Below the pieces are notes generated by a model, which was not told the DNA's origin, did no database searches, and saw nothing but the letters and a program-made list of their open reading frames with translations. A program made the translations under genes and the position numbers. From NCBI GenBank assembly GCA_004369045.1, contig ML213508.1, positions 649,748 to 713,747 on the forward strand: 64,000 nucleotides of DNA. The letters are read 5' to 3'. Positions 7,045 to 64,000 of the stretch are shown piece by piece (the stretch's first letter is position 1; each line of letters starts with the position of its first letter). The stretch is from Heliocybe sulcata (taxonomy: Eukaryota > Basidiomycota > Agaricomycetes > Gloeophyllales > Gloeophyllaceae).

Positions 7045-7505
7045 TTACTTCTCGGGGTTGGGGTTCCTACAGAAATCGAGTCAGCCTCGGTCACGAATTC
7101 GAGAGGCATGGGGGAATGCGAAGGGAATCAGATAGGAGCGAAAGACATTAGATGCATATTTGTCAACATGAATGTTCAGTGTGAACTATGCTTGATTTTG
7201 CTGGATTCATCACAAAGCGGGGCGGAGAGTCGAAACGAAGGGGCGTCATGGCTCAAGTCGAAATCACACTCACATTCTCCGCTTGCCACCAGGGAGCGTC
7301 GTGACGTTCACGAATCTAAAGCACACAACCCGCATGAGCAACACTTCCTCCATATCGTACAAACCACCGTAGCGTACCTGCGATTGTAGACAATCCGCTT
7401 CTTAGCACGCCCCTTGGGGGTCTTCTTCTTCTCCTGCTTCTCTACTTTGGGCGTCTGCGACTTGACTTTACCCGCACGGGCGAGGGATCCGTGGACTTTT
7501 CCCAT
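7045..7505 (-). CDS. RPS30: 40S ribosomal protein eS30
   Basis: Three exons (7378-7505, 7274-7315 and 7045-7066) make exactly 63 residues. The protein starts [19 protein letters not shown], continues [26 protein letters not shown], and ends NPNPEK. This is the highly basic small-subunit protein eS30, located in the 40S shoulder region. Both junctions keep frame (AG+A gives Arg, AT+G gives Met), and the last exon codes only for the final few residues. As in other fungi, the protein stands alone and is not fused to a ubiquitin-like domain as it is in animals. The ATG at 7505 is the only sensible start. About 450 bases separate it from the 3' end of the upstream membrane-protein gene on the same strand, and they should hold the promoter. 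Confidence 0.97.
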
Positions 7506-9939: not shown

Positions 9940-10839
9940 ATGGCCAGAGGTAGAGGAAGAGGTCAAAGTGGCTCGCGGGCAAGAGTAAGAGGAAGAGGAG
10001 GTGCGGCGCGTACGGGTACTTTAAACGTCGACGAACACGCACCGGGAGTCTTCGAATCTACCGGTAATGCACAAATACATTAAGTAATGCGAATGCTCAC
10101 GAAACTATCGCCGTGGAAAGGTCTCGCAATAGCACTGGATGATATCCTGCAAACTGGTCTGCGCTTAGGCTCAGACGCTGACGATGGTAGCACGACCGCT
10201 GTCGACTCTGATCCGGACGTTGAGCCTGAGTTTCTGCGCGCTTCCGGAGGCACCCGTGCAAGACCGCGACCTCAAGAAAGTCGTGACGAAGAAATAGCAC
10301 GATCTTATTACGGTCCCGAGGTAACATTGGCCCAACCTACCGGGCCTCCTCTCGACGTCGAAGAGGAGATAGGCGGCCTGATTGTGGACGACCCCACTCG
10401 CGACGTACGAATCAACGTCCTCCTCCCTGACGTCCCGTCTTTCACCATCTCAGTCCACCCGCTGCATCTGCCAAACACGCGGGCTATGTTCGGCTCGGCC
10501 TCCTCGACCTCTCTCGTGGACTGGCGCTTCGTCAGACTGGCTGGACTGCTGCCAACCATGGTGCCCATCCGCCTGGGCGTCGACCGAGTCGACATAAGAT
10601 CCCTGTACGGTGGAGGACCCATGCGCATATACGGACGAGTCAACCTGCTTTTCGACGCCCAGGGATACGAATTCGAGCTACCGTGCTGGGTAACGGACAT
10701 TGCCTTTCCCGTCGAAGTCATGTTGGGCGTTGACTGGGCACGGGGTTCTGGCCTATCGACGCGGCTTTTTCCATTCGAGATCACCAGAGCCGATGCTAGG
10801 AAGACTAGGGCCGTAGACGATGTGTACCGGATGAGATAG
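9940..10839 (+). CDS. RG-rich protein with a retropepsin-like domain (retroelement-derived?)
   Basis: An ATG at 9940 opens an arginine/glycine-rich start (MARGRGRGQ...RVRGRGG). A short intron (10064-10120) then leads into a long exon ending at 10839, 280 residues in all. The middle is acidic. The last ~130 residues have the pattern of a retroviral-type aspartic peptidase fold: strand, turn and helix around SLVDWRFVRLAGL, then IYGRVNLLFDAQG, WVTDIAFPVEVMLGVDW. The ending resembles the LG-DW element of retropepsins of LTR elements. This is inference from pattern only, and I cannot say it is catalytically active. No reverse transcriptase, integrase or terminal repeat was found nearby, so this is either a lone relic or a host gene built from such a domain. 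A broken second copy lies at 16.8-17.3 kb. Confidence 0.55.
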
Positions 10840-11077
10840 GAGGACCGACCAATAGCCGGTATCCAATCGGATGAGCTTTTGCTTTTGCCCAATCTGTCAG
10901 AACCACCACACGGAGTTTTCAGTAAGCCGTCATCTAGAGTCAGTCTTTTCGCTAGTCCTCCAGCTATCCTATGCTTTACGAGATACTCGGGAGTCCACTC
11001 CTATTGATTTATATCATTTCTCATCTGCGCCCTCTCTGCCCTATTTCATATGATGAACGTTTCAGCGCCTGCTCTCA
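10840..11077. other. Spacer between retropepsin-like gene and PNP pseudogene
   Basis: No gene is seen. Similarity with the second duplicated segment is lost here: the matching spacer there is longer and has unrelated sequence, including the true last exon of PNP. Confidence 0.5.
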
Positions 11078-11745
11078 CAACACCTCTTCCCTCACGCTCC
11101 TATATCCATCGGGAATGACAACGAAATTTGTTACCAAACTCAGCACGCAAACCTCGATACCCTCTTCCTTGGCTGCAAGTACTTCAGGTACAGTACTCAT
11201 GCCTACCACGCTCGCGCCAGCGGCTCTGAGGAACCGGCCCTCTGCCGGACTCTCGTACGTGGGCCCGGAGACCCAGGCGTACGTGCCTTCGCCTAGGGCT
11301 GAGGAAGGCAGACCGAGCTCGTGTGCCGCGAGGAAGACGGTGCGGCGGAGGGAGTGGGAGTATGCGGTGGAGAGCGGGAGGAACCTGGGGTATTGTGGTT
11401 TGGCGGGGCCCAGGAGGGGGTGGAAGCCGGTCAAGTAGACATACTGGTTCCGACCGGGAGAGCTGGGTCAAGAGATCCAGCCGCGTTTGTGACTAGCGAG
11501 TAGAAACGTGGGTGAGTCGGCGTACACTAGCTATGGACTTTGATATGCTCACTGATAATGTCCTTAAGTGACGTCGAGACTGGCCATCACACGCACCGGG
11601 TAGACGACAGTGGAGAGCGAACGTCCTTTCATACGCATGGAATAAGCTGGGCCATTCTGAAGTGAGCTGATACAAGCAGAGCAGCGCATTGTATTTACTT
11701 ACCCGTATAAGCATGGCTGGGATCGTGGTCCCTTTCTGTGAAGTA
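11078..11745 (-). pseudogene. Truncated purine nucleoside phosphorylase copy
   Basis: This closely matches the 3' two thirds of the intact PNP gene at 17.4-18.7 kb. It keeps the large exon with LGEGTYAWVSGPTYESPAEG, VVGMSTVPEVLAAKEEG and SLVTNFVV, and degraded versions of the upstream exons (HAYE remains; the next part is out of frame). It lacks the two most N-terminal exons with the GSG phosphate loop. It also lacks about 75 bases that in the intact gene hold the acceptor side of an intron and the exon for SIRDHLALPNL, and the last exon (about 40 residues). No continuous PNP can be produced. It was created by duplication with the neighbouring retropepsin-like sequence and then decayed. The similarity of the big exon suggests a recent event or gene conversion. 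Confidence 0.9.
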
Positions 11746-16838: not shown

Positions 16839-17361
16839 GTCTACCGGGTCTCCTCTCAATGTCGAAGAGGAGATACAAGTATGCGGCCTGATTAATTGTG
16901 GACGATCGTCCTCCCCTCTGACATCGCGTCCTTCACCGGCTCAATCCACCCGCTGCATCTGCCAAACACGCGGGCTATGTTTGGCACGGCCTCCTCAACC
17001 TCTTCGTGGACTGGCGCTTCGTCAGACTGGCTGGACTACTGCCAACATGGTGTCCATCCGCCCGGGTGTGGACCGAGTCGACATAAGATCCCTTTACGGT
17101 GGAGGACCCATGCGCATATACGGACGAGTCGACGTGCTTTTCGACGCCCAGGGATACGAATTCGAGCAGGCGTGTTGGGTGACGGATATTGCGTTTCCCG
17201 TCGAGATTATGCTGGGTGTTGACTGGAGTATCTGTGCACCAATCTCATCGATGGACGTCTTGGTGTCTGCTTTCACAACAGACAATTTCATGGAGAAATC
17301 TGTCTTCAAACTGCACTTGGTCGCCTGTCTAAGAGTTCCGTGGCTGAGCAACGCAGCCTAA
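16839..17361 (+). pseudogene. Broken second copy of the retropepsin-like sequence
   Basis: From about 16839 to 17225 the sequence matches 10337-10740 of the intact-looking copy in the same orientation. It keeps recognisable pieces such as HPLHLPNTRAMFG and WVTDIAFPVE, but the frame is broken in several places. After the LGVDW position the two copies become unrelated. It is followed, as in the first copy, by PNP sequence on the minus strand. I treat it as a fossil and cannot date it beyond noting that similarity is still high at base level. Confidence 0.7.
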
Positions 17362-17450
17362 ATTCGTTCCCAGACTCGGAAGGAGTGTCGGGGTAGCATG
17401 GCTTCTCTAGGTTGAACAATATTTAAGTTTAATAATACCGACATCAGCGC

Positions 17451-18749
17451 TCAGCCACTCTTGCCAAGGAGCTCTATCATCTTCTCCACGAGAGACCGCA
17501 TAACTTCGCCTTTCTCCTTTCCAATGGCGAGAACTTCCTCGTGCGAGACTTCCACTTGTGGCACTGGCGGTAATGGCCGACCAGCCAACTAATATGCTGA
17601 TTAGAGCTTATTTCACTTTGATGCACAAGCTTTAGAGAAGGCTCACCTCAGCTTCTACCTCTTCCCTCACGCTCCTATACCCATCGGGAACGACAACGAA
17701 ATTTGTTACCAAACTCAACACGCAAACCTCAATACCCTCTTCCTTGGCTGCAAGTACTTCAGGTACAGTACTCATCCCCACCACGCTCGCGCCAGCAGCT
17801 CTGAGGAACCGGCCCTCTGCCGGACTCTCGTACGTGGGCCCGGAGACCCAGGCGTACGTGCCTTCGCCTAGGGTTGAGGAAGGAAGACCGAGCTCGTGCG
17901 CCGCGAGGAAGACGGTGCGGCGGAGGGAGTGGGAGTATGCGGTGGAGAGCGGGAGGAACCTGGGGTATTGGGGTTTGGCGGGGCCCAGGAGGGGGTTAAA
18001 GCCGGTCAAGTTCGGAAGAGCAAGGTGGTCACGGATTGATACGACTATTTCATGTCAGCGCCTATTAGTGTACTTCTGGGTTGGACATACTGGTTCCGAC
18101 CGGGAGAGCTGGATCAAGAGATCCAGCCGCGTTTGTGACTAACAGGTAGAAAACGCGGGTGAGTCGGCGTACACTATGACCTCTTGATATGCTTACTGAT
18201 AATGTCCTTGACGCCGAGTCTGGCCATCACGCGCACGGGGTAGACGACGGTGGAGAGCGAATGTCCTTCATAAGCATGGAACTAGCTGGGCCATTCTGAA
18301 GTGAGCTGGCACAAGCGTAGCAGCGCACTGTATTTACTTACCCGTCCAAGCATGGCTACTACTGGTACGCCATCGCCAGGGCCCACCAAGCCGAACGCGA
18401 GAGCACTCTTGTGTCCGTGGACTGTGAGGAGTCGGAAGGGTCTCAGTATATCAGCACTCCGGAAGTAAACGCAGTAACACATACCAGTACTGATACCAAA
18501 GCCCTTCAGTGAAGAATAGGGAACTTCGATACGTTCTCTGAAGCTTGCCGCGAGTGTGCTCAACCCGGATCCACATACGATGCCTACTTGTGGCTTGAGC
18601 AGGCGCTCTGGTAGGATAGTGGCGAGGATATCAAGGTTCGAAGCGATGAATTCTAGAGAAGTATCTTCGTGAACGGTACTCATTGCGGCCAGCTGATATG
18701 CGAGTAAGAGGTTGCCGAGTGAAGTTAGCCCGCGATCTACAGGAAGCAT
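17451..18749 (-). CDS. PNP1: Purine nucleoside phosphorylase
   Basis: This complete minus-strand gene has about seven exons. The protein shows the trimeric PNP signature set: GIVCGSGLSTLA (phosphate loop), VHGHKSALAFG, MLGRFHAYEGHS, RVMARLGVKDIIITNAAGS, IRDHLALPNLTGFNPLLG, WVSGPTYESPAEGRF, VVGMSTVPEV and SLVTNFVV, and a basic, amphipathic C-terminal exon ending LLGKSG. The family splits inosine and guanosine with phosphate to base and ribose-1-phosphate in purine salvage, in the cytosol. Two starts are possible: 18749 (MLPVDRGLTS) and 18683 (MSTVHEDTSLEF). The second gives a normal PNP length and is favoured by family length. The gene is divergent from the ABC transporter, with about 380-440 bases between. 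A truncated duplicate lies 6.5 kb away. Confidence 0.94.
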
Positions 18750-38473: not shown

Positions 38474-38692
38474 AACATGAGATGATATGCCGTCCCGCGC
38501 GTATGACCAGAATAAATCGACTATTGAATCAATGACGCGTAGCCAAAAACATTTTTGCAAATTGAGGACAGGAAGAGCTATCAAACCATATGGAGTCTGT
38601 GAGTTAGGCGTAAGGAGACGACTGAAAACAATTGTCACCCCGATGACCGAGCGCAATGAAATACACCACCGTTAAATGCCGAACGTCACAGG

Positions 38693-40365
38693 TCAGTGCT
38701 CTCGTATAACTTCCTGCATATCAGGCCTTTCCTGGGGGTCTTCCGCCCAGCATTGCTGAACAATCTGCCAAAGATTGGCGTCCATGGCTCTACCGGCGTA
38801 CGTATCTTTCGTGGGCAAAGGCGGCCGCTCGAGCTTCATGAGGCGCTCGATGACCGCGAATTTCCTTTGCGTCTCGGGAAACGGCGGTTGTAGCGTGTAC
38901 ATCTACCAGGAGGATCAGTCTGCGGATATATATATCGCGTGAATGGAGTTACCTCCCATACTGTGCAGGCGAACGAGTAGACGTCTGCCTTCTTTGTCCG
39001 AACGGGTGGGGCGCCGTCGAAACCGAATATAAGTTCTGGAGCCATCCATTGTATGGAGCCGGAGCCTTCGAGAGGGTCCGTGACGTGCGTATCGACGAAG
39101 GTACTCAAGCCGAAATCAGTTACCCGAGCGTGACCTTCGTCGTCAACGAGAATATTCGACTGTCAAGTGCGATGTTAGTCGTGGTGAACATAACAAGTGC
39201 TTCTGAATATACTCACCCCTTTGAGATCACCGTGCACGATGCCTTGCGAATGTAAATACTCCAGCCCTGTGGCTACTTCGCAGATCTGGACGAGACGGTG
39301 TTAGGAGTACGAGGTTGGAAGAGGTATTAGGACTCGCCAGTCGTTTCATTGCTTTGTCCGGGAGCCGGCGTCGCTCAAGCAGCTGTATGACATTACCGCA
39401 ACGCATCCAAGGCAAGACCATAGAGACCGCGCCGTTACTATCCTCCACAGATATACCTATCATTGGCAAAATGAACGGATGATGAAGTTGGCGCCACAGT
39501 AGAGCTTCGCGAAGGAATAACTAACGACGGGTGAGCGGATTTGTTCTGCCTGTGCAAATATTGGGCGACTGACCTGGCGCAACTTCTTCCGCTGCTGGAG
39601 ACTACTGGACAGAAAGAACCTTAATCGTTTCAGAGCGACGACTCTGCTGTGGATTCGCGCTTGAAAGATGTCCGATAATTCTGAACCGGCAATGATGTCG
39701 TACGAGTCTTGTTGTATATCGTTAACAAACAGTTGGGAAGGAAATCGTTCGGACGTCTCAGAGAGGTCTTGCAGTATATTAATGGCCAGTCTTCGCAACT
39801 GGCGGTCCTCTGGCATATTCGCCTCATGCTGGTTTGGAGCAGATACCAGTTCTGCCGCGGTCATTGACTGTACATCCAAAAACCGAAAAGTATATGATGT
39901 CAGTACAACTTTTCGTACCTAATAAGGGCGGATAGACGGACCACCTGCAGCTCATCGAGAGCTTCCTGTGCCTCATCGCCCCTCAACCGGCGAATGCGAT
40001 CTCGTTGCACGGCACTAGAGAGGATGGATCCTAGTGTGGCGCGTTCACGAGAATGCAGGCGATGCAGTGAGGCGTTCCGTGAGGGATCAAGTCTGCTTGC
40101 ATCATACTCAAAGAGCGTATTCAATGCATCAAACGTGTCCGAAACTTGGTCGGGATCATGGCGGATGGACGCAGGTGGAGTGACTTTCGTGTGGCGTTCT
40201 TGCAGTTGACGCCACAGGACACAGCTACATATCGAGTGGCAAAAATGAACGGTCCTAAGTCAAGAATACTGTAAGTAGAATTTAGAACACCGTACCTGGT
40301 AGGAGATTGTTCATCGCAAAACCGACGGTCGTGCGCCGCACAAGATGAACCTGTTGGTCGGCCAT
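38693..40365 (-). CDS. TKL-type protein kinase 1 (HGDL catalytic loop)
   Basis: Minus-strand exons encode an N-terminal helical region (FDALNTLFEYDASR, GDEAQEALDELQ), a linker (LQDLSETSERFPSQLFVNDI) and a kinase domain. The domain has GSELSDIFQ in the place of the glycine loop, VALKRL with the ATP-site Lys, ATGLEYLHSQGIVHGDLKG for the catalytic loop, SNILVDDEGHARVTDFGLS with an intact DFG, GSIQWMAPELIF, DVYSFACTVWE and ERPDMQEVI close to the stop. Gly replaces the Arg of HRD, common in the expanded TKL kinases of mushrooms. The core catalytic residues are present, so it may be active. The ATG at 40365 (MADQQVHLV) is the best start I see, but the N-terminal splicing is unsure. It is divergent from kinase 2. 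Confidence 0.85.
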
Positions 40366-41220: not shown

Positions 41221-43398
41221 ATGTCTGGCGACAATCCTACCGTCGCACTTGGCCTAGACCACATGGAGAAACCTGCTGAGTTTACTCAAGTGCTGCTAGA
41301 GATCTCGAGAGCTGCTGATGGAAGCCGCCTTTCCGGCTCTGAAGTGGCCGATGCCACCCATACGGCACATGCCATGGCTCTGGCATTGAAGGTCCCTATT
41401 TACACAGTCCCATCGTTCAATGACTCATGCTAATTGATCAGGAGCACCCGGACGAAGAGCATCTCGCCATTACTAGTGTCGCTCTCGATCTCACACATCT
41501 AGTGCTTGAGAAGACTGTAGATCCAGCCTTGGATTGGGAAAGCGACCTCGCGAAGATCGTTCGGCATACCTTAGTGTGGGTCTGTTGAGTTACGCAGTGC
41601 TTGGAAAGTCATTAAATTTCCGCGTCTCCCAGCGAACTTCGAAGCCTTCACGACTCTCTGTTGAAGGAACCAGATGGAACGGACCCCAGCGCTAATGCCA
41701 ATCAAATTCTCGAATATCGCGAGATGCTTGACGCAATGCGCCAGTCGTTCATGGTACGTGGCCTAGAATCTCGGACGAGGACGTTTCATTTATATATCAA
41801 CCTGGTCAGAGAGCCCTTGAGATAGATGAGGCGAGGTTGCGGAGTTCGGGAACCAATGGTAAGAAACATTGGATTCAGATGTGTATTAGCTGGCGCTGAC
41901 TGCGCTGCTCGTGCAATAGAGTTGAGTGGCCCCCGAGGAGACCGCATTCCCCGTCCTGCGTCATTAAGACGTCTCTCAGGTAAGCATGGTTCTGTTGTCA
42001 ATGGCAGTTCCTCTCAACCAAGATTATCAGATGCTCAGGAGCGAGACCGTATACTCAGCCTGCGAAATGGAGAGGCCCTCCAATATATCAATGACCTATA
42101 CTCGGTGCGTGTCGTGGTATGCGAACGCCCGTGGTCAATCTTACGAAGAGACTGTCCTTCAGTTTCTTCAGCAGCCTGTGGCAGCTTCGTCGGAAGACAG
42201 AGAAGATCGGAATTCTGCCCGTCTACTCCTGAAAGAGCTCTGCTCCGCCTCTGATCAGATGCCAACCGACTTGTTGATTACAGATGATGTCCATGTTCCA
42301 GTTCATCCGACGTTTGTTGGAGGATTCGGTCATATTTACCGGGGTAAATGTGGCAAGATGGATGCCGCGCTGAAGAGGATGACGTTCTTGCTCTCAGCCG
42401 GCCTTCCTGATCGAAAGAGGAGATGCAAAGTAAGCTCTACTGGTATACCTACGGAATCTTGTATTCAGTGCTTCACGCAGTTGTTCCTCCGACAAGCTCT
42501 CGTATGGGGCCAACTTCGGCATCCATTTATCGAGCCCTTTTTGGGTGTCCACTTGGCAGGTGAAGATATCATGTACGGCGTGACACGTTGGAGGGCAAAC
42601 GGGAATATCCGGGGCTACATAGAGGCCTTCAAGCCGCCTATCGAGAAAATTAATCAGTTGGTGGGTGCCATAGCTCAACAATAAAGCCAAACCTGACATT
42701 TGAACAATCTAGATCTTCGAAGTAGCCTGTGGATTAGCGTATCTGCATGAGGACGGAATCGTTCACGGTGACGTACAAGCGGTATGAGCCTCCATTATTT
42801 GATTCGTCATCATACCCAATACCGGTGGACAGGCCAATGTCCTCGTGGATGAAGAAGGGCATGCACGCTTATCCGACTTCGACTTGGTAACGTTCGTGGT
42901 GGAGGTCACCGAGAATATGGGATCAGCGACGCGACACTTCCGGTCGGCGGGCGGCCCAAATCACATGGCCCCTGAGGTCATGCTCGACGACGCGAAACGG
43001 ACGGAGGCCACTGACATATACGCCTTTGCCTGCACTGCCTGGGAGGTTAGTATCGTGGTAGCCTACCCAACTTTCCTGTTCATTGAAGAAACCCTGACTC
43101 ACAGATGTACACCGAGACCGTTCCTTTCGCATGGTCGTTCATCATCGAGCTGCACCTTGACAAGCGCAGAAGACCGCCGAGACCCACCAAGGGTAACTAT
43201 AAAGGAAGACACATGAGCTGGCCTCTTTGGCTCACTGTGCAACGCTGCTGGGCTCATGAACCTGCCATGAGACTGCGGATGCGACAAGTAACGGAAATGC
43301 ATGCTCCCGAGCTGCTCAATCAGACGTCTGATGTCAATGACGTCCAACTTCAAGGTTTGTTCTTCACTGCTGTCAGGTGCTTGGCGCTCAACTTATAA
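41221..43398 (+). CDS. TKL-type protein kinase 2 with altered DFG motif
   Basis: The ATG at 41221 begins MSGDNPTVALGLDHMEKPA. Helical exons follow (FTQVLLEISRAADG, HLAITSVALDLTHLVLEKTV, LEYREMLDAMRQSFM), then GEALQYINDLYS, which ends at the same intron position as in kinases 3 and 4. The kinase domain has GGFGHIYRGKCG, AALKRM with the ATP-site Lys, LRHPFIEPFLGVHL, FEVACGLAYLHEDGIVHGDV-A, NVLVDEEGHARLSDFDLV, MAPEVM, DIYAFACTAWE and PLWLTVQRCW. The DFG glycine is replaced by Asp (DFD), although the metal-binding Asp itself remains. The stop at 43398 assumes the last exon is read through; a late intron is possible. The N-terminal region is longer than in the other three. Activity is uncertain. 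Confidence 0.83.
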
Positions 43399-43907: not shown

Positions 43908-44600
43908 CTAATAGAATCTTGCGCAGCTGCCCAGCTCTTCGCGAAGCTTAAGCATTGCGATCAATCTTGACTTCTGGGATGCTGTATCCTTGTCCAAGAA
44001 AGTCTTTGCAATGATACATGGATCCAAGTGTTCCTGGCATATAACAAGGACTTCGGACAAGCAACGCCAGCACGCCAAGTCGAGTACAGCTGCCGCCCCA
44101 GTCGTCTTGACGCGGCCTCCGCCACCGTTATGCGCATTGCTCTCTGATAGTAATACGAGCTCCAGCCGGTGAATTGTGACAGCTTCTTGCAGAAAACACG
44201 TTGGGTATCTCCGTTTACCGGTATGTACCAATGATGTTGCTCGAGGCAAACGTTCTCTATGACCCGCGTATCATATTATCAAGTTCCAGCCGGCATGAAG
44301 ATACGTACGGTGTCAATGCGGCAATTGCCTGTAACTCTATTCTCATTCAATCTTGACCCTGTACTTCGTGTAGATGTCACTAAACTGAGAGTCTTCCACA
44401 AGTACACGCTCCCTCATGGGTGACGTTGGTGAACGGCCTTTGTGCATCTGGCATTCCAACGACAAGGCCAGAATGCAAACCTTCAGCCACAGCGGGCTCG
44501 AGTGCAGCCTGGAATCCCAAATACGGTAGACTCGGCCGGCCTCAGTGGCATCGGCTAGCAGTGCGAAGCTCTCCCTGACCCCATGATTCTTTTCTTAGCA
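43908..44600 (-). pseudogene. Remnant of a repeated gene family (copies at 55.4 and 60.2-61.0 kb)
   Basis: The minus strand reads as fragments of a protein. From about 44600 comes SFALLADATEAGRVYRIWDS, LWLKVCILALSLECQMHKG and RERVLVEDSQFSDIYTKYRV, then a stop. After a gap comes EAVTIHRLELVLLSESNAH, VLDLACWRCLSEVLVIC and SRLIAMLKLREELGSCARF to a stop near 43908. The same DNA recurs on the plus strand at about 60,540-61,060, and part of it at 55,355-55,500. The first fragment looks well preserved and may still be an exon, but I could not find its start or link all pieces. I do not recognise the family. A dispersed gene-fragment family spread by duplication or by an element is the simplest reading. 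Confidence 0.5.
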
Positions 44601-54995: not shown

Positions 54996-56522
54996 GTGGG
55001 CCCGGCTGGCGTTCCATGCTTGTGGCATACACCATCCCTTGTTCACGCTTTACCATGTATCGGGATCATTTTACACAATACACCACATGTTTCCTTCGTT
55101 ACGACAGAGAACATTCTGGAGAGTCTGTGTCACAAGTCCATTGGGTCACAATCACGTGACCATGCCACACTCCAGTCTTTACGCGATGGCCATTCATGTA
55201 CATGGACGGCACGGCTGTACAGAACGAGCTACTACAGCTGAAACGATGGTGAGTGTGACGAGAGTGGATATTTTGTGTGTATCTGAATTCTCTGGATATG
55301 ACAGTGACTGGTCAAGATGAAGCGAAGAGTCACACCGCACGATGAAAGACGCTTGCCGATGCCACTCAGGCCGGCCGCGCCGACCGTTTCTGTTATTATA
55401 GACTGGATTCGAGCTCGCTGTGGCTAATGGTTTGCATTCCAGCCTGGCCACTGGAATGCCAGATGCACAAAGGCCGTTCATCAAAGTCGCCCATGAGCGA
55501 GCGTAGACCTTGTTCGAGTCTAAGTCAAGTCGGTCGAGGTGCAGTGACGGGGATCGTACCTTCCAAAGCCCGTAGCTTCACCCAGCCGTACCGAAGCGCG
55601 CAGTCCGGCTACTCGTGGCATGTGGCATGCGACAAGTTACGCTGGTCGGAATCTCATTCTAGCCGATACAGGCGGCTACCATATCAGCAACCTATGAAAC
55701 CATGAATTCGCTCTGAAAAAAGCAGCTTGTCTACCTGTGGCATACCATACGTGACACAGGTGGCGGAACTACGATACTGCGACTATGGCCATGCGGAGGG
55801 TATAATACCGGAGAAGACACCCTAGATCGATACCTCGCACCCTATTCCAGCGGCGCCGAGACACGCAGCTTCATAGCCATCGGCATCATGACCATGCCAC
55901 AAGGAACGGAGCTGCTGGGGCGGTCGGGAGAAGACGCTTCTTTGAAGGTAGAGCTGATCAACTCCTGTTTCATATACAGCGAACAATAGAACGGCACGCA
56001 CGCTGAGCCGAGTGGCATTCGCGCGATTAGCGGAATGCCACCGAGACCGTGACGGCGAACCAATCGCGAACGTCGCTAGGAGCTACAGTAGGAGCGCCCT
56101 CAAGGCGAGGTCAATGGCACAGCCATACAGGGTCCGGCGGAGAATGAATCGCGCTAGAGACAATGGCCTCGAGGACGCGCCGAAGTGCCACAAATCATCG
56201 ATCAGAGAAGCGACCATGCGTATCAGAAACACGTGTGGGGTAGCCGAAATTCCGATGCGGATCCATGCACAGTACAAAGGGCAACCGTGCCTGTGGCACG
56301 CACGGAAGCGGAATATCTGCGCCTGGACAGAGACAAAGGGCTGGCAAGGCGGATGCCACAGGATGCGCAGGAAATCATATATAAAGGCCTGCACCTGGGG
56401 TCTAATCGTCCACCAAGCTCCCTGCCGACCCGCACTCCGCACTTAAGGGCCTTTGCTTTAGCCCTGCCTCTTGTCCAAAACTCTCTCCTCGCTCCTCCTA
56501 GTTTTAGTCTCTGCCATTCAAA
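54996..56522. repeat. Repeat-rich spacer with copies of window repeats
   Basis: There is no intact gene. 55355-55500 matches part of the gene remnant at 44.4-44.55 kb (opposite strand). 55510-55640 resembles the unit of the hairpin array at 61.4-63.7 kb, including a gcatgcgacaagttac arm. 55975-56140 closely matches 63860-64000 (acagcgaacaatagaacggc ... cacagccatacaggg) in the same direction. The last ~100 bases hold the leader and promoter of kinase 3. Confidence 0.7.
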
Positions 56523-57850
56523 ATGGCCGACTTGCTGACGCCTGAGAGCATCGAACACTATAGTCTCGACAAGAATCTGTGGCCGACCTTGATGGAGCGT
56601 CTGCAGACAGAGGATAACGGTACGAAGTACTTGGAGTACTTATACGACGTGCGTTCCCTCGTCCCACATTGGATTACGCCCGGTGCACTAACCCTTTTGC
56701 TCGCCTTCAGTATATAAAGAAAGAGCTGGCGTCCGACCTCAGGCTCCGCGCCGCAGCTCTGGTGCTCATGAAGGAAGTAGGACAACATTTCGACATATAT
56801 CCCCCGCAGATCATGATTCAAGGTGCCGACATCGATCCAAACCCGTGTGGTGATGGCGGCTTCGCCGTAGTCTACAAAGGACTCTACCAGGGTAAAGCAG
56901 TTGCAGGCAAACGACCGAAAGCCGACGGGCCGACGTTCGCCGAGCCACATCGCATGGCTAAGGTCCGCTCTCTCCCTCTTCAACGTCGAGTCAACGCTTA
57001 CGGTTGCCATTCACGACTCAGATGTTTCGCCGAGAAGTGGCGATATGGTGCCTACTCGAGCATCCGTACATACAGCCCTTCATAGGCGCATACGCTCTCG
57101 ATGGCACCCCTGCGGTCTATGCTGTCAGTCCTTGGTGCGAACGCGGTACTATCAAGGCCTCGGAGCATGTGAAGACGTTGTCACAGACTCACGTCAACCG
57201 ATGGGTCAGTATCTGTTTTTCTCATTTGTTCCGCAACTGATCCTGGTACTACAAGATCTTCGAGATCGCGCAAGGTTTGAAGTACCTCCATTCGTGCGGA
57301 ATCATCCACGGCGACCTTCGCGGGGTGAGTTACATTGTCTTCCGTCATGTCGCAAGGCTCACACTTTTACAGGACAACATTCTGATCTCTGACGACGGTA
57401 AGGTGCAGATCGCCGACTTCGGCCTCGTGACGTACTCGGAGGCAGTTCTGGGCACTACTTCCAAAGAACTCCAAGCGGCTGGCGCTAGACCGTGGATGGC
57501 ACCGGAAATCCTCGATGAGCTGGATATAGATTTGAGGCGGACCGAATCGTCTGATATCTATGCGTTCGCTTGCACGATATGGGAGGTAGGCAGAATCTCA
57601 CTCATCGAACGCACATTTGCTCTGATCCGGCTACTATTGCTAGCTATACATGAAAGGCGCTCAGCCGTGGCCGGGCGTATTCTATCCTCTTCCTTACAAA
57701 GAAGTCATGAACGGCAACAGGCCCCTGCGACCGAGTGCCATGCCCGACGGCCTCTGGGACATTGTACAGAAGTGCTGGGACCAAGACCCAGCGGCAAGGC
57801 CGCACATAGATGATGTGATAATCAGCCTTGATGCTGCCCATATCAATTAG
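56523..57850 (+). CDS. TKL-type protein kinase 3 (tandem pair, first)
   Basis: The ATG at 56523 starts MADLLTPESIEHYSLDKNLW. The N-terminal helix ends KYLEYLYD at an intron, and the next exon has YIKKELASDLRLRAAALVLM and FDIYPPQIMIQGADIDPNP. The kinase domain has GDGGFAVVYKGLYQGKAVAG, FRREVAIWCLLEHPYIQPFI, FEIAQGLKYLHSCGIIHGDL, DNILISDDGKVQIADFGLVT, RPWMAPEILDELDI, DIYAFACTIWE, DGLWDIVQKCWDQDPAARPH and stops at 57850. DFG and the catalytic Asp are intact; Arg of HRD is Gly. Lys in the ATP site is probably that of AVAGK. About seven exons. It is very similar in plan and intron positions to kinase 4, 500 bases downstream, so the two are a tandem duplicate. Confidence 0.88.
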
Positions 57851-58351
57851 CTACACTTGTCCCTTCGTAGGATATTCCAAGGAAGCCTCAAATTCCTTCA
57901 AGTAGTCTTGTCAAGTCGCTCGAACGCCGTTTGCGAAAGATGTTCCCTTATGTTTCCATTTGTATTGTCACTATTAGAGAGAATAGAGAATAAATCGTTT
58001 TGTTTTACCTTCATTGGCGTCGTAGTCCATGGTATTCAGTTCATGTTTGCCCCGTCTGGCCTCAACCCCCAAGTATACCCACTCAAGCACTGGTCGCATG
58101 CAGGCCTTGTAGACGCCCCGGCCCAAGGTTGTGCGGAATACTATCCCCTAGACAGCGACCTGGCTTGACTTAAACGTTCAAGTGCTTTGTAGTCTATCGT
58201 GAATTAGTCGGTCGTCGACTAGACAGGATAAATGCACGAACAGGTCATGTAACTCTGTATTAATTGCTCATGCTGTCAATAGACAAGGTAAGCTCAACTA
58301 CTCACGCTGCGCATAGGGGTCCGCAGCACGTGATTGTTCTCTCTCGTTACA
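57851..58351. other. Spacer between kinases 3 and 4
   Basis: The 3' flank of kinase 3 contains words such as gagagaatagagaataaa. The flank after kinase 4 (59.8 kb) has closely similar words (agagagaatgaattgttttg), so the 3' flank was part of the duplicated unit. The promoter of kinase 4 lies toward 58351. Confidence 0.55.
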
Positions 58352-59723
58352 ATGACGACCGACTTGCTGTCGCCTCAGAGCTTGCAGCACTATATCACTG
58401 ACGCTGGGCTATGGCCGGGTCTACTGCATCTTCTGGAAGGTGGTGAGGCTCAAGAATACCTGAACAATTTGTACAATGTTCGCGTCCTCCTGCACATCGG
58501 ACTAGACCTAGTGCATTGACACAATCATCAATCGATCGTCTTTAGTACGTAGACGAGCAATTGGTGTCCGACGCCATCCCTCGCCCCGCAGCTCTTGAGC
58601 TCCTGAAAAAGATAGCACAGCAATTCGAAATATTTCCCCAACAGATCATGCTCGAAGATGTCGTCTTCGACTACAACCCGGTGACTGCCAGTAGCTTCGC
58701 CATAATCTACAAGGGGCAACACGAGGGTAAAGCGATTGCTTTAAAGTACCCTAACATCCTCGGCCTAGCATCGCCTACAAATTACACCACACACCAGCTT
58801 ACCAGGGTTCGCTCCTTTCCTCATTCACGTCGAACACTGGAGACTTACACTCGCATTTACGAGCCAGATTTTTCGCCGAGAAGTAGCAATATGGTGTCTA
58901 CTCAGGAACCCGTACATACAACCCTTTATCGGCGGGATATATGTCCCTAACACCAATCTGGTGTACGCCGTCAGTCATTGGTGCGACAACGGTACTGTTA
59001 ACGACTTTATCAAGAGCACACAACCGTCGCTTCCTCGAGTCAATTCATTTGTCAGTATATTTGCTTCTCACCTATTCAGCATCTTATTCTGGTACCCCAA
59101 GATCTTTGAGATCGCGCTCGGTTTGAAATACCTTCACTTCCACGCAGTCACTCACGGCGACCTCCGCGGGGTCAGTTACATGGCCTTTCTTCATGTCACA
59201 ATGCTGACACGCTCACAGGCCAACGTCCTGGTCTCTGACGACGGTAAGGCACTGCTCACCGACTTTGGTCTCGCGACATACACGGAGGAGGCGGCTGAGA
59301 CTGGTCGAAACCTGGGGCTCACCACCAAAGCGCTCCAAAAGGATGGCGCAAAGCCATGGATGGCGCCAGAACTAGTGGACGACAGTATGGATGGACTGAG
59401 GCGGACTGTGGCGACAGACGTCTATGCGTTCGCTTGCACAGTATGGGAGGTAGGCCAGATCCTACTTGTCGAACGCACACCTGCTCTGACCAGATTATCA
59501 TTGCTAGCTAGACATGGGAGGCGCTCATCCCTGGAGTCCGTGGGCGGGTAAAGCCATGTATAAGCTTACAATGGACGTCATAGCCGGCAAGAGGCCCCCG
59601 CGACCCACGAACATGTGTGACGGCCTTTGGGCGATTGTAGAGGAGTGCTGGGCCCAGGACGCAGCGGCAAGGCCGGGTATGGATGCTGTGATAACCAGCC
59701 TTAGTTCTGCCAGTATCATGTAG
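58352..59723 (+). CDS. TKL-type protein kinase 4 (tandem pair, second)
   Basis: The ATG at 58352 starts MTTDLLSPQSLQHYITDAGL, parallel to kinase 3. Then come EAQEYLNNLYN at an intron, YVDEQLVSDAIPRPAALELL, FEIFPQQIMLEDVVFDYNP, TASSFAIIYKGQHEGKAIAL with the ATP-site Lys, FRREVAIWCLLRNPYIQPFI, VYAVSHWCDNGTVNDFI, FEIALGLKYLHFHAVTHGDL, ANVLVSDDGKALLTDFGLAT, AKPWMAPELVDDSMDG, DVYAFACTVWE and DGLWAIVEECWAQDAAARPG, stopping at 59723. The glycine loop has lost its glycines (TASSF in place of a GxGxF pattern), while kinase 3 keeps GDGGF. DFG is intact. Whether it still binds ATP well is open. The 3' flank resembles that of kinase 3. Confidence 0.87.
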
Positions 59724-60229
59724 ATACACTTGTCCCGTCGTGGGATGCTCTAGTGAAGCCTCGGATTTCTTGAAGTAGTCTGGCCAAGTCGCATTTGTAT
59801 CACCACTACTAGAGAGAATGAATTGTTTTGTTTTACCTACATTGGTCTTGTATTTCACAGCAATCGTGTTTGCCGCATGTGGCTTTCCGGGGCGACGAGT
59901 ACTAAGAATGATACATCAGACTTATATACAACACAAGGTTCCTCGCTCACTCACCTGCGTGGCTACCTAAGAATGAATACCTTGTGGACGGGTATGATGA
60001 TCCGTAGACAATTCCGTGCGTCTAAGAGGATTATATCTAAAAGACTCGCAGAACATTGCTACGTACCAAATAATCGAAGTCGTCCATTGTGGAGGCCTCG
60101 GTTGTCGAGCGTCTTAGGAAAATCGAGTGAGTGCACTGTCTGGCGCCGATCGAGTTATCGTCGCCAAGTTTTGGGTCCGTCTGAGCAGAATTGTGGGGAC
60201 CCTCAGAAGAGGCAGCGAGAGCTTTGACC
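59724..60229. other. 3' flank of kinase 4 and unassigned sequence
   Basis: The first ~120 bases resemble the flank of kinase 3; the remainder shows no gene. Confidence 0.4.
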
Positions 60230-61060
60230 TGACATACTGAGCGCCTGCGAGAAGGGCATTCTGTGCCTTCCTCCCGGCGAGCCGTCTCTGCGAGTCTTGG
60301 ACGAAGAGACAGTGGCCATAATTGCCTTCTTGAGAGTCGTGCTCGATGCATCGGTTAGTTCTGATCCCGCGCCGCTAAATACGGCTCCACGGACGTCGTA
60401 TGGTTCCCCAGAATCGGAATTTGGAAGAAAGCATCTACGGCATATGATCCGGTGCATATAATAGTGCCCGACTACGCAGCGCCCGTGCAAGTCACGACGT
60501 CCGGCGGAGTTGGTGAACGTAGACGCTTCATCGAGTATGTGCGCAGTCTGTAAGACGCGCGCTGCTGATCTTGCCTCCATTACCGGTTGTTCCCGATGTT
60601 CCTCTGATCTTGCCCTCGGCATGCCAGATGCACATATGCGTTCGTCCAAGTCACCCATATGGCCGGAGCGTACTACACCTCATGAAAGACTCTCAGTTGA
60701 GTGTTGTCTGCAGAACGTACAAGGTCAAGCTTGAACGAGACTAGAGCTACAGGCACTTGCCGCACCGTATATCTTCGTGCCGGCTGGAACTTGATAGATG
60801 ATACGTAGGTCATAAGAGAGCCTGAGAACGTTTGCGTCGAGCAAGAGCATGACTTTTAAACGATGATGCCCAGCGCATTTTCTGCAAGAGACTGTCACAA
60901 TCCACCGGCTGGAGCTCAGAAACCGGAGTACATAACGGTTGCCGAGGCAGTCAAGACGACTCCTTCTCATATACCGAGACGACTACACTTACGAGGTGGA
61001 ACACAGATCGAAGATCTAAGAACGTTAATTGCCGACAAAGCACATCAGCACATATACTGA
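60230..61060 (+). pseudogene. Second copy of the repeated gene-family remnant
   Basis: A protein-like stretch runs from about 60230 (LSACEKGILCLPPGEPSLRV, DEETVAIIAFLRVVLDAS) to a likely intron donor. From about 60540 to 61060 the DNA matches the minus strand of 44.6-43.9 kb, including the atgccagatgcaca and gccggctggaacttgat words and a later caccggctggagctc word. Frames do not connect into one protein here. It may supply the N-terminal part of the same unknown family, which would place LSACEKG... before the part seen at 44 kb; that link is inference. Confidence 0.45.
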
Positions 61061-61399
61061 CCTTCCCGGTCTATCTTGCGGCGCTCCTGCAGCCTTGCAC
61101 CGTTACAATCGCGTCAATCTACCGGACTATTTCTTGCGGACCTAGTCGAAAGCAACTGATGGTCTTCCGCGGATACTGTGCAGAGAGTCTCTACTGATAT
61201 TAAGACAAGCCTAGAAGATCAACAGAGGGGATATCGCTAACCGCACGTCCTCCCTACAGAAGCTGCCAGATGTACGACTGGCGACGGCTGTGAGACTCAG
61301 CCTACAAGCGAGGAATACACGTCGATGACTGACGTTCACTAGCGGCCATGGCATTGGCCCGGGTTCATACATATCTAGTAATGGCAACCTTCTAATTGC
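61061..61399. other. Unassigned sequence before the repeat array
   Basis: No gene or clear repeat recognised. Confidence 0.35.
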
Positions 61400-63700
61400 G
61401 CATAAGCTGAATATGAGTATAGTAATTAGGGCGCACCTCGCAGATTAATAGCCCAGCATATACATTCCAGCAACTCCCAAGTAACGGAACTGCGATGGTC
61501 TGATTGAGGCTGCGACATGGAAATAACCAGCTGTATAGTAGTCTGTTAGTGTACATGCGACGGATTTGAGAGGGTGTTATAGTCTCACCTATGGCTCCTA
61601 CCTTAACTGCCTGTAAGCTGACCACCAGTATAGTAGCGGATCGCGCTACGTACAGATACTGATGTAATCCGGTAGCGCCAAAATCACGCTGTTCCAGTTC
61701 CACCACTTGTGGCATAGCATATGCGACAAGTAACGGAACTGGGAAGCGTAGTCTGAAAGCAGGTGCAGCAGCTATTCGCACGAATCTAGAGAACTGTAGA
61801 GTTTATCAGCTTCTGGACGACTAAACGATGATGCTGATGGGTTTGCGGACCTTGCAGACGAGTAATGCCGTCACGTATGATCCAGCAAGCTCCGAAGCAC
61901 GCAGTCCCAGTTACGGTATGCAACAAGTAACGGGACTGCGATGCGTGATCTGAGTGTAGGTTCAGCACACAGTCGTTTGAGCATAGATAACTGTAGGAGC
62001 TGGGAGAATACAATGGACAGACCTGTTAGGCTAGCCGGTACGAGCCTATAGTCGGTGGCAGAAAAGATCAGTAGGCTCGGCATGCGCAATTCATGAGCTC
62101 TGAAGAGCGCAATTCGGCTACTAGTAGCATGCGCTATGCGACAAGCAACGGAACTGCGATACGTTGGGTTTATAGTAGCAGAAATGGCGCTAACCTCAGA
62201 ACGTATGAGTCATCAGCTCCGAAGGACACAGTTCCTATACTTGTTACATGCCACATGCGACAAGTAACGGAACTGCAGATACTTCGATGACGATTCTGAC
62301 CAGGTCCCCAGTAGATGATCGTAGTACGTACCTCGCACACCGCTCGCCGTTCCACTACTCGTGACATGCTGTATGCGACAAGCAACGGAACTGCAGTATC
62401 CTGAATTTTACTTCAGCAGTCCCGGCGGCCAGTAAAGTAGCCCAAAGACTCACCTGCAGACCCGTGAATTTGAGGCCTAATGTCTAACAGCGCCGAAGCA
62501 TGCAGTTCCGCCACTCATGGCACGCCGTATGCGACAAGTAACGGAACTGCAATACTTCGAGTCTGCTTCTAGCCAGTCAGAGTATAGTAGCGAAGAAGGT
62601 ACCCTGTGAAATACCAGCCCAAACATGTACGATCCGGCCGCACAATTCGACTTGTATGCAAAAAGCGACGGAAATACGATGCTCAAATACGATGCCGATC
62701 GGTGGAGGCGGTCGGTGCAGGAGGGGACGATGACCTGTTGGTGAAGGCGCGCTCAATGACCGGCAGGGAACGCCGACCTGGCAGATCTGGAGCAGTATGC
62801 GCGAGGTATACGCGTAGCCAGCTCCCATGATCAATGCTCAGTCGCAGAAACCGAGCCTAAATACGCGCCGACCACAACGGAGATCAGATTGAGTAACGTC
62901 CAAGCTACACGTCACAGAAGGCTCGTACCGTTTCGGCAAAACAACAGGGAGGACAGTCGCCATGCGAAATCAAGACGCTTGAGTCCCACGTAAGAAGTGG
63001 CCCAGTCCTAAGGTTTAACAATAAGTGATGCCTCAGTATCAAGAGGCTCTTACCGTCTGTCAAAGCTATGACGGCGGTATGTGACCAAAGAGCACGGACC
63101 ATGACGAGGGCATCAGTGATTATGGGGCTGATAAGAGCTAGTGAGCCAAGCACTAGTATAGTTGCGGACAACACACCTTGCAGATAGGCAGGCACCCTCC
63201 ACCGGCTCCGCAGCGGGCAGTTCGGCTACATGGTGCACAACTTATGCGACAAGTAACGGAACTGCCATACTTCGAATCCGACTCTGATCAGCCGAGGGCG
63301 AGTACGGTAGCAGAGAATGCATTGCACGCATCGGAACCTCAGCCACCAGCGCGGAGAGCACAGTTCGGCTAATCGTAGCATGCTGTATGCGACAAGTAAC
63401 GGAACTGCGACACTTCGAGTCTGATTCAAGTCAGTCGCGGTGCAGTGACAGAAACTTATTGTGTCCAGCAGCTTCACCCAGCAGCACTGAAGCGCGCAGT
63501 TCGGCTACTCGTCGATGTGACATGCGACAAGTAACGGAACTGCGATCGTCCAGACGGCAAGTCCGATGGCGTAGCAGGCAGGTATAGACACTGGCCTCGA
63601 GATGGACTATCCATAAGCTCCGGAGTACACAGTTCGAGTACTTGTGGCATACTACATGCGACAAGTAACGGAACTGCGCTAGTTAGAATCTGACTCTGGC
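61400..63700. repeat. Array of hairpin-forming repeats
   Basis: About ten copies of a ~50-base imperfect palindrome recur at 115-255-base spacing. The right arm (gcgacaagtaacggaactgc) is the most constant, at about 61735, 61935, 62150, 62275, 62390, 62545, 63265, 63405, 63540 and 63675; a right arm without partner lies near 61480 and a degraded copy near 62660. The left arm is its reverse complement with a few mismatches (for example GCAGTTCCG 62502-62510 against CGGAACTGC 62542-62550). Between palindromes runs a looser unit with atacttcgagtctgactctg and a gctccgaagc word before the next left arm. No open reading frame follows the period. A related partial unit lies at 55.5-55.75 kb. Confidence 0.85.
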
Positions 63701-64000
63701 CGATAGACGCACCCCTAGATCAATAACTTCACACGCGCAATGCCGCTGCGTCGGTGGCCCATGGCATTATGTTGCGAGAAGTAAGTGGACAGCCAGGATA
63801 GATGGGTGAAGACGCTGAAGGTAGAGTGGGGGCCCAATCTGAAGCCCGACTTGATATATGCAGCAGCGAACAATAGAACGGCACGGACACTGAGCCGGAA
63901 AGTGCCACCGGGACGGCGGACCAATCGCAAGCATCGCTCGGACCTAGAGCGGGCGGTCCATCAAGGCGAGGCAATGGCACAGCCATACAGGGTCTGGCGG
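63701..64000. repeat. Direct repeat of 55.97-56.14 kb at the window end
   Basis: From about 63860 to the end the sequence closely follows 55975-56140 in the same direction, with small internal length differences (acagcgaacaatagaacggc near 55.98 kb, gcagcgaacaatagaacggc here; both end cacagccatacaggg). It is probably continued beyond the window. Confidence 0.75.

Follow-up and report, generated by a model that had tools for sequence, protein, structure and literature searches.

Introduction

The MIRNA genes of plants are said, on the account given by Allen et al. in 2004, to have arisen from inverted duplication of the sequences that they target. An inverted-duplication origin model for plant miRNA genes is set out in a published paper (PMC3237417). 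In Drosophila, hp-CG4068 is described as a tandem hpRNA cluster, with its hairpins on a single transcript and a rapidly changing copy number, 20 in D. melanogaster and 9 in D. simulans; according to the same source, the progenitors of hpRNAs are mRNAs, and the small RNAs of hp-CG4068 act on a cellular gene, mus308 (PMC10317233). For fungi, a re-analysis of mi/milRNA loci uses read support, intergenic position and conservation as its ranking criteria, takes a conserved duplex region to indicate selection, and deals with loci that rest on sequenced small RNAs, nearly all of the top ones being called lineage-specific (PMC9757828). In Ceratobasidium, thirteen candidate milRNAs have been described, with kinase-like proteins among the predicted targets (PMC9610886).

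Here we describe a locus of the basidiomycete Heliocybe sulcata that resembles each of these systems in part. It lies in the window, that is, the whole stretch of 64,000 nucleotides that was analysed (contig ML213508.1 of assembly GCA_004369045.1, positions 649,748 to 713,747), and is called array A. Like hp-CG4068 and some other hpRNAs, array A bears a tandem row of hairpins on one strand, and, as in hpRNAs, its arms are related to a coding gene in both orientations. It differs from hpRNAs in that the hairpin measures only ~49 nt (~80 nt with the flanks, which often pair) and in that a single 22-nt stretch is kept. Moreover, hp-CG4068 belongs to an animal, and its expression and dcr-2 dependence are reported as measured. 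As in plant MIRNA genes, both arms resemble the coding sequence of the presumed target, and one of them is kept while the other drifts; unlike those genes, array A is a fungal tandem array in which the extended similarity to the gene covers a short span and has been partly eroded. With the fungal mi/milRNA loci it shares short hairpins and a 22-nt candidate, but array A is tandem, and the word 'tandem' occurs 0 times in the main text of the re-analysis (PMC9757828). Among the literature matches listed, as judged from titles and abstract openings, no comparable tandem array of hairpins from a fungus was seen. We propose that the array may be a minus-strand cluster of miRNA-like hairpin precursors that derives from an inverted kinase duplication and would give a candidate 22-nt RNA antisense to kinase mRNA, and we consider the chances of this reading to be about even.

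Results

The window contains apparently intron-split genes, with WD40 and protein-kinase domains, at 49-59% G+C, and a minus-strand C/D snoRNA of the snR60/Z15 family (51.1 bits) at 7128-7216. Four of the genes are tyrosine-kinase-like (K1 to K4, Table 1). K1 reads D-F-D where K2, K3 and K4 have D-F-G, and R-L-R-M where the others have R-P-x-(M/I); from these residues we presume that K1 may be a degenerate kinase. A young repeat is present in two copies (10337-11718 and 16841-18357), with 96% identity between the cores 11082-11436 and 17657-18011 and 83-88% in the adjoining parts. The ORF at 10087-10839 appears retropepsin-like by eye, and Pfam gave no match for it.

Array A is a decayed tandem array, and the core of its unit is a hairpin. 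The earlier note had described about ten palindromes at 61400-63700, and ten hairpins, ~49 nt long in the intact units, could indeed be confirmed there (61694-63677), all of them folding better on the minus strand than shuffled sequences; three further hairpins form a second array, array B (55600-55915). With a covariance model trained on 12 copies (ten of array A and two of array B), the array-A hairpins, nine full and one shortened, scored 44-71 bits, and those of array B 52, 48 and 33 bits, the weakest of these being the one hairpin that had not been used for training. The 3' arms of 12 consecutive array-A units follow one another at distances of 249, 197, 218, 119, 118, 156, 127, 588, 143, 135 and 134 bases. 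The bulk of the 588-base gap, at 62680-63230, shows no recognisable hairpin, and a possible further unit of array A lies at about 63737-63796. When up to 3 mismatches were allowed, the 17-mer ACAAGTAACGGAACTGC had 15 occurrences on both strands of the window vs 0.08 in shuffles.

Table 1. Positions of the arrays, their units and flanks, and the kinase genes in the window
Feature	Positions	Strand	Score or basis
Array A, decayed tandem array; neighbouring units mostly 118-156 bases apart	61400-63800	- (proposed precursor strand)	
Broken unit A1, without 5' arm; 3' arm with 5/22 differences	61462-61493	-	14.9 bits
Hairpin A2, with C-G replacing G-C as outer pair	61694-61742	-	covariance model and folding
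Hairpin A3, shortened, with a two-sided change at pair 6 and a one-base bulge	61901-61939	-	covariance model and folding
Hairpin A4	62109-62157	-	covariance model and folding
Hairpin A5	62228-62276	-	covariance model and folding
Hairpin A6	62346-62394	-	covariance model and folding
Hairpin A7, lower stem pairs too; -46.7 kcal/mol with 16-base flanks	62502-62550	-	covariance model and folding
Broken unit A8, with decayed arms; 6/22 differences in 3' arm	62642-62677	-	16.8 bits
Hairpin A9	63217-63265	-	covariance model and folding
Hairpin A10	63360-63408	-	covariance model and folding
Hairpin A11	63496-63543	-	covariance model and folding
Hairpin A12	63629-63677	-	covariance model and folding
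Array B, older and more diverged; hairpins 55600-55645, 55722-55772, 55865-55915	55504-55930	-	
Left flank of array A	60603-60961	+	72% identity (389 columns) to reverse complement of 44100-44472, downstream of K1
Left flank of array B	55351-55530	+	79% identity (181 columns) to reverse complement of 44379-44559
Region downstream of K1, inverted counterpart of the left flanks of arrays A and B	44100-44559	-	
Right flank of array A; truncated by window edge	63763-64000	+	66% identity (gapped) to 55882-56140 beside array B
K1, tyrosine-kinase-like, apparent introns	41986-43323	+	Pfam PF07714 up to profile position 256/258
K1 coding site ATGCGACAAGTAACGGAAATGC (M-R-Q-V-T-E-M), predicted target	43279-43300	+	21/22 bases as in conserved arm
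K2, tyrosine-kinase-like, without close arm match	56727-57919	+	
K3, tyrosine-kinase-like, without close arm match	58562-59792	+	
K4, tyrosine-kinase-like (3' part)	38690-39162	-	

The left flanks of both arrays match, in inverted orientation, a region 0.8-1.2 kb downstream of K1, and the right flanks of the two arrays match each other. Since these flanks are common to both arrays and partly found near K1, a larger unit has been copied. This would suit an old non-coding transposable element, of which the hairpins would be internal or subterminal repeats, their motif pairs binding a transposase or drifting. We regard such an origin as improbable, since five translated stretches of the array regions yielded no transposase family, and blastn with E up to 1 detected no inverted repeats in 55001-56700 and only the array's own in 60001-64000. 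Moreover, the intact hairpins share a single register and a single orientation, and the match to a kinase exon would need capture by the element. The left flanks lie in the order that an array locus copied, inverted, from the K1 3' region would show; judging by these alignments, the stretch shared with the region downstream of K1 may be either part of the kinase duplication or a separate repeat.

The two arms of the array-A hairpins are conserved to very different degrees. The 3' arm (22 nt; ATGCGACAAGTAACGGAACTGC on the plus strand, GCAGUUCCGUUACUUGUCGCAU on the minus strand) has 97.2% pairwise identity among the nine full copies, and the edges of this block are sharp. Pairwise identity in the nine copies is 60.1% for the 5' arm (one copy being one base off register), 38.9% for the loop and 26.5-37.9% for three flank stretches, all compared without gaps. 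The order of conservation among these copies of one array in one window, candidate guide arm above opposite arm above loop and flanks, is as for a miRNA-like locus. Differences in the 3' arm amount to 3/198 in the nine full hairpins and 2/22 in the shortened copy, and to 5/22 and 6/22 in the two units without hairpin; thus, the arm is intact where the hairpin is intact. The array-B counterpart of the frozen arm is also decayed.

In alpha satellite, the 17-bp CENP-B box is a protein site within long centromeric arrays and does not take part in hairpin pairing. Array A resembles it as a set of diverged tandem monomers with a short conserved box, and it may be asked whether array A is satellite-like, the 22-bp box being a DNA-binding site and the palindrome a relic of the inverted origin. 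We consider this unlikely, though worth serious attention: diverged monomers that have retained one short box are exactly what array A shows, and the 3' arm of A1 is still recognisable with its 5/22 differences where the 5' arm is missing. Nevertheless, the box has decayed in the two hairpin-less units (5 and 6 of 22), and array A is of small size, with genes around it. A DNA-binding site would leave unexplained the two-sided changes and the minus-strand G.U bias of the 5'-arm transitions described below; pairing and wobble bias exceed their controls, which speaks against a box kept regardless of pairing.

Conservation of the block could also be ascribed to recent amplification followed by neutral decay, or to a peptide repeat under protein selection, and we give very little weight to either. 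A sharp block at 97% identity amid flanks at 26-38% is not neutral. The frozen arm translates as M-R-Q-V-T-E-L and the 22-mer is in frame in K1, as a peptide repeat would have it, but stops number 48, 35 and 39 in the plus frames of the array, and the motif is found in each of these three stop-filled frames, so that the arm is not kept as protein. The nine good copies have 0 changes at third codon positions of the arm and 2 at first or second positions. A coding array was rejected, the plus frames being full of stops.

Folding was compared between the strands. On the minus strand, all ten array-A hairpins are more stable than shuffled sequences (z -3.4 to -7.6); on the plus strand, seven of ten have z < -3, the other three showing 0.4, -0.5 and -1.1. 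The mean RNA energy of the ten hairpins is -23.2 kcal/mol on the minus strand vs -18.5 kcal/mol on the plus strand (Wilcoxon p 0.014). The minus-strand RNA folds better in eight of the ten, and the plus-strand RNA is favoured for A3 (by 0.8 kcal/mol) and A12 (by 3.0 kcal/mol). With DNA parameters the strands are alike (-10.6 vs -10.5). A lower stem is present in several array-A hairpins. In long minus-strand folds (62080-62600 and 63190-63720), A5 pairs with A4 and A12 with A10 instead of each folding alone. Tandem palindromes could form longer duplexes by pairing with each other.

The non-Watson-Crick cells of the stems separate the strands as well: in array A, the minus strand has G.U in 27 of these cells, the plus strand in 2. 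This count covers nine array-A and two array-B hairpins, A1, A3, A8, the unit at about 63737-63796 and B1 being excluded as broken, shortened or truncated. The earlier note had supposed that either a structured RNA or a DNA hairpin is under selection; the G.U counts and the RNA energies speak for the RNA form, and the DNA energies differ little between strands. Within single copies, Watson-Crick pairing between the arms fails at 4-7 of the 22 positions. In the nine array-A copies, 5'-arm transitions that give G.U on the minus strand were counted in 25 cases, at 9 of 13 eligible positions, and those that give A.C on the minus strand in 2 cases, at 1 of 9 positions; the contrast of positions has a Fisher p of 0.011, for a pattern that was noticed first and tested afterwards. 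The starting state in this count is the perfect complement of the frozen arm, for which K1 serves as a supporting outside reference. No such bias was found for 5'-arm transversions (6 positions with 7 cases vs 4 positions with 13 cases). Flank transitions of the array-A units number 27 vs 30 in the two directions, and this near equality argues against a mutation bias. When drift was simulated on a flank-built tree with four settings, equal lopsidedness appeared in 0.05, 0.38, 0.05 and 0.07% of the runs with similar transition numbers. Over the same 22 pairs in 12 copies, the paired share is 87.0% for the minus strand and 75.9% for the plus strand. Array B is without strand bias, two of its hairpins having 5 minus-type vs 4 plus-type mismatches and each strand being favoured by one fold. 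Judging by these substitutions, the stems of array A look as if they pair as minus-strand RNA. The drifting arm lacks pairing at stem position 8 in 5/10 array-A copies and at position 18 in 8/10, as if two small internal loops were kept.

Covariation between the arms was also detected. Two-sided changes occur at 2/22 pairs in array A alone vs 0.2 expected (ten copies), and at 5/22 pairs in arrays A and B together vs 1.7 expected (12 copies, with A3 included and B1 left out), values that 0/500 shuffles reach in both cases; related copies can, however, beat shuffles without any structure. The arms had been said in the earlier note to change in compensating pairs, and such pairs are real, but they are few. 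Its two examples were found in place, the outer C-G pair at 61694-61701/61735-61742 (ccagttcc/ggaactgg) and the paired inner change at 61901-61908/61932-61939 (gcagtccc/gggactgc). The 'extra GTTAC/GTAAC stem' that it saw in the latter copy is no addition, the 5' arm having a one-base bulge and having lost about ten bases. Within-copy pairing is 87.0% vs 84.9% with shuffled arms for both arrays, and 89.5 vs 88.2% for array A alone. The near-constancy of one arm keeps the effect small. On the minus strand, the paired percentage, the two-sided changes and the covariation score are each reached in 0/500 shuffles, with both arrays as well as with array A alone. The plus strand of the copies from both arrays is also above shuffles (two-sided changes at 6/22 pairs vs 2.4 expected; 2/500 shuffles reach this), and therefore covariation backs the pairing and not the choice of strand. 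The strand-specific wobble is stronger evidence than the covariation.

The two array-A copies in which both sides of a pair are changed would fit arms homogenised through gene conversion in cruciforms, the other explanation offered in the earlier note, or through template switching there. We consider this very improbable. The arms of one copy mismatch at 4-7 of 22 positions while the 3' arms hardly differ between copies; the rates of the two arms are very different, the mismatches at positions 8 and 18 are common to many copies, and gene conversion would give no strand bias.

The best match to the frozen arm outside the arrays is the K1 site, 21/22 bases alike, in frame, within the C-terminal coding exon and at the end of the kinase domain. 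By tblastn, the alignment of the K1 end with K4 runs through the motif and that with K3 reaches into it, and K2 was aligned by eye. Longer alignments link the array to K1 in both orientations: 62516-62567 with 43266-43316 (79%, E 3e-5), 63244-63294 with 43279-43326 (76%, E 0.002) and, inverted, 62193-62249 with 43334-43279 (72%, E 2e-4). These matches span 51-57 columns including the 22-mer, and they are strong for the 22-mer and weaker beyond it. The consensus flank beyond the 5' half agrees with K1 at 11/16 bases (in shuffles that keep dinucleotides, p is 0.004 for identity and 0.09 for the gapped score), that beyond the 3' half at only 3/16 bases, and flank tests of single copies against K1, with single-base composition kept in the shuffles, were mostly non-significant. 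At the protein level, the array flanks gave no convincing kinase remnants, the best candidate having E 0.003 in a frame that differs from the kinase frame. We infer the direction from kinase to hairpin on the grounds that the coding context is common to the kinases. A duplex of the 22-nt RNA with K1 is predicted at -33.3 kcal/mol, and for K2, K3 and K4 terminal stretches of 50 bases give -14 to -18 kcal/mol.

The search of the array in Rfam returned nothing at the gathering score, the only hit being MIR1024 at chance level (18.2 bits vs a cut-off of 70, E 4.8), in agreement with the statement in the earlier note that no named repeat of this kind was known; a new RNA family need not have such a match. 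No tRNA was predicted by ARAGORN; pol III box-like words are visible by eye. Exact 17-mer scans led to 12 viral-contig and 27 genome-contig stretches, and none of these 39 holds the full 22-mer; the 27 genome-contig matches are about what chance would give (an estimated 30 or so in 257 billion bases on two strands). Considered as relatives, these external loci reached at best 20.8 and 20.6 bits with the hairpin model (E 0.003), scores that were taken as chance because the loci had been picked for holding the 17-mer. A text search with four spellings of the arm 17-mer gave no occurrence in the papers searched.

Discussion

The near-frozen arm, the strand-specific pairing, array B at 55.6-55.9 kb and the kinase match were all absent from the earlier note, and it is with these features that the proposed miRNA-like cluster can be given a history. 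An inverted duplicate of a kinase 3' end would have given the first hairpin, and tandem amplification the others, array B being possibly an older sister of array A. Such a descent agrees with the inverted-duplication model for plant miRNA genes, and in its mode of action the cluster would resemble hp-CG4068 and the mRNA-derived hpRNAs of Drosophila. A long minus-strand transcript might fold into a row of hairpins, from which Dicer would cut and release a duplex; the guide would be the conserved 22-nt arm, GCAGUUCCGUUACUUGUCGCAU, as the 5' strand. Pairing of this guide with the K1 mRNA (21/22 bases, one mismatch) may lower kinase expression, and kinase genes elsewhere in the genome might represent further targets. 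Fungal small RNAs often start with U. The first base of the candidate guide is G, and we count this against the guide reading.

A broader reading, to which we give somewhat less than an even chance, would be that of a fungal small-RNA gene with a readable birth. An inverted kinase 3' end would have led to tandem hairpins, and these to a 22-nt guide against the surrounding family of parent kinases, which might act as a feedback brake on an expanding family.

The origin of fungal miRNA-like loci and the selection acting on them are an open question. If the proposed reading is true, the origin from the target, the selection on pairing and the acting strand would all be legible in one stretch of DNA, and the question would become directly testable. 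Moreover, the action of hpRNAs on new gene families, known from flies, would be extended to fungi.
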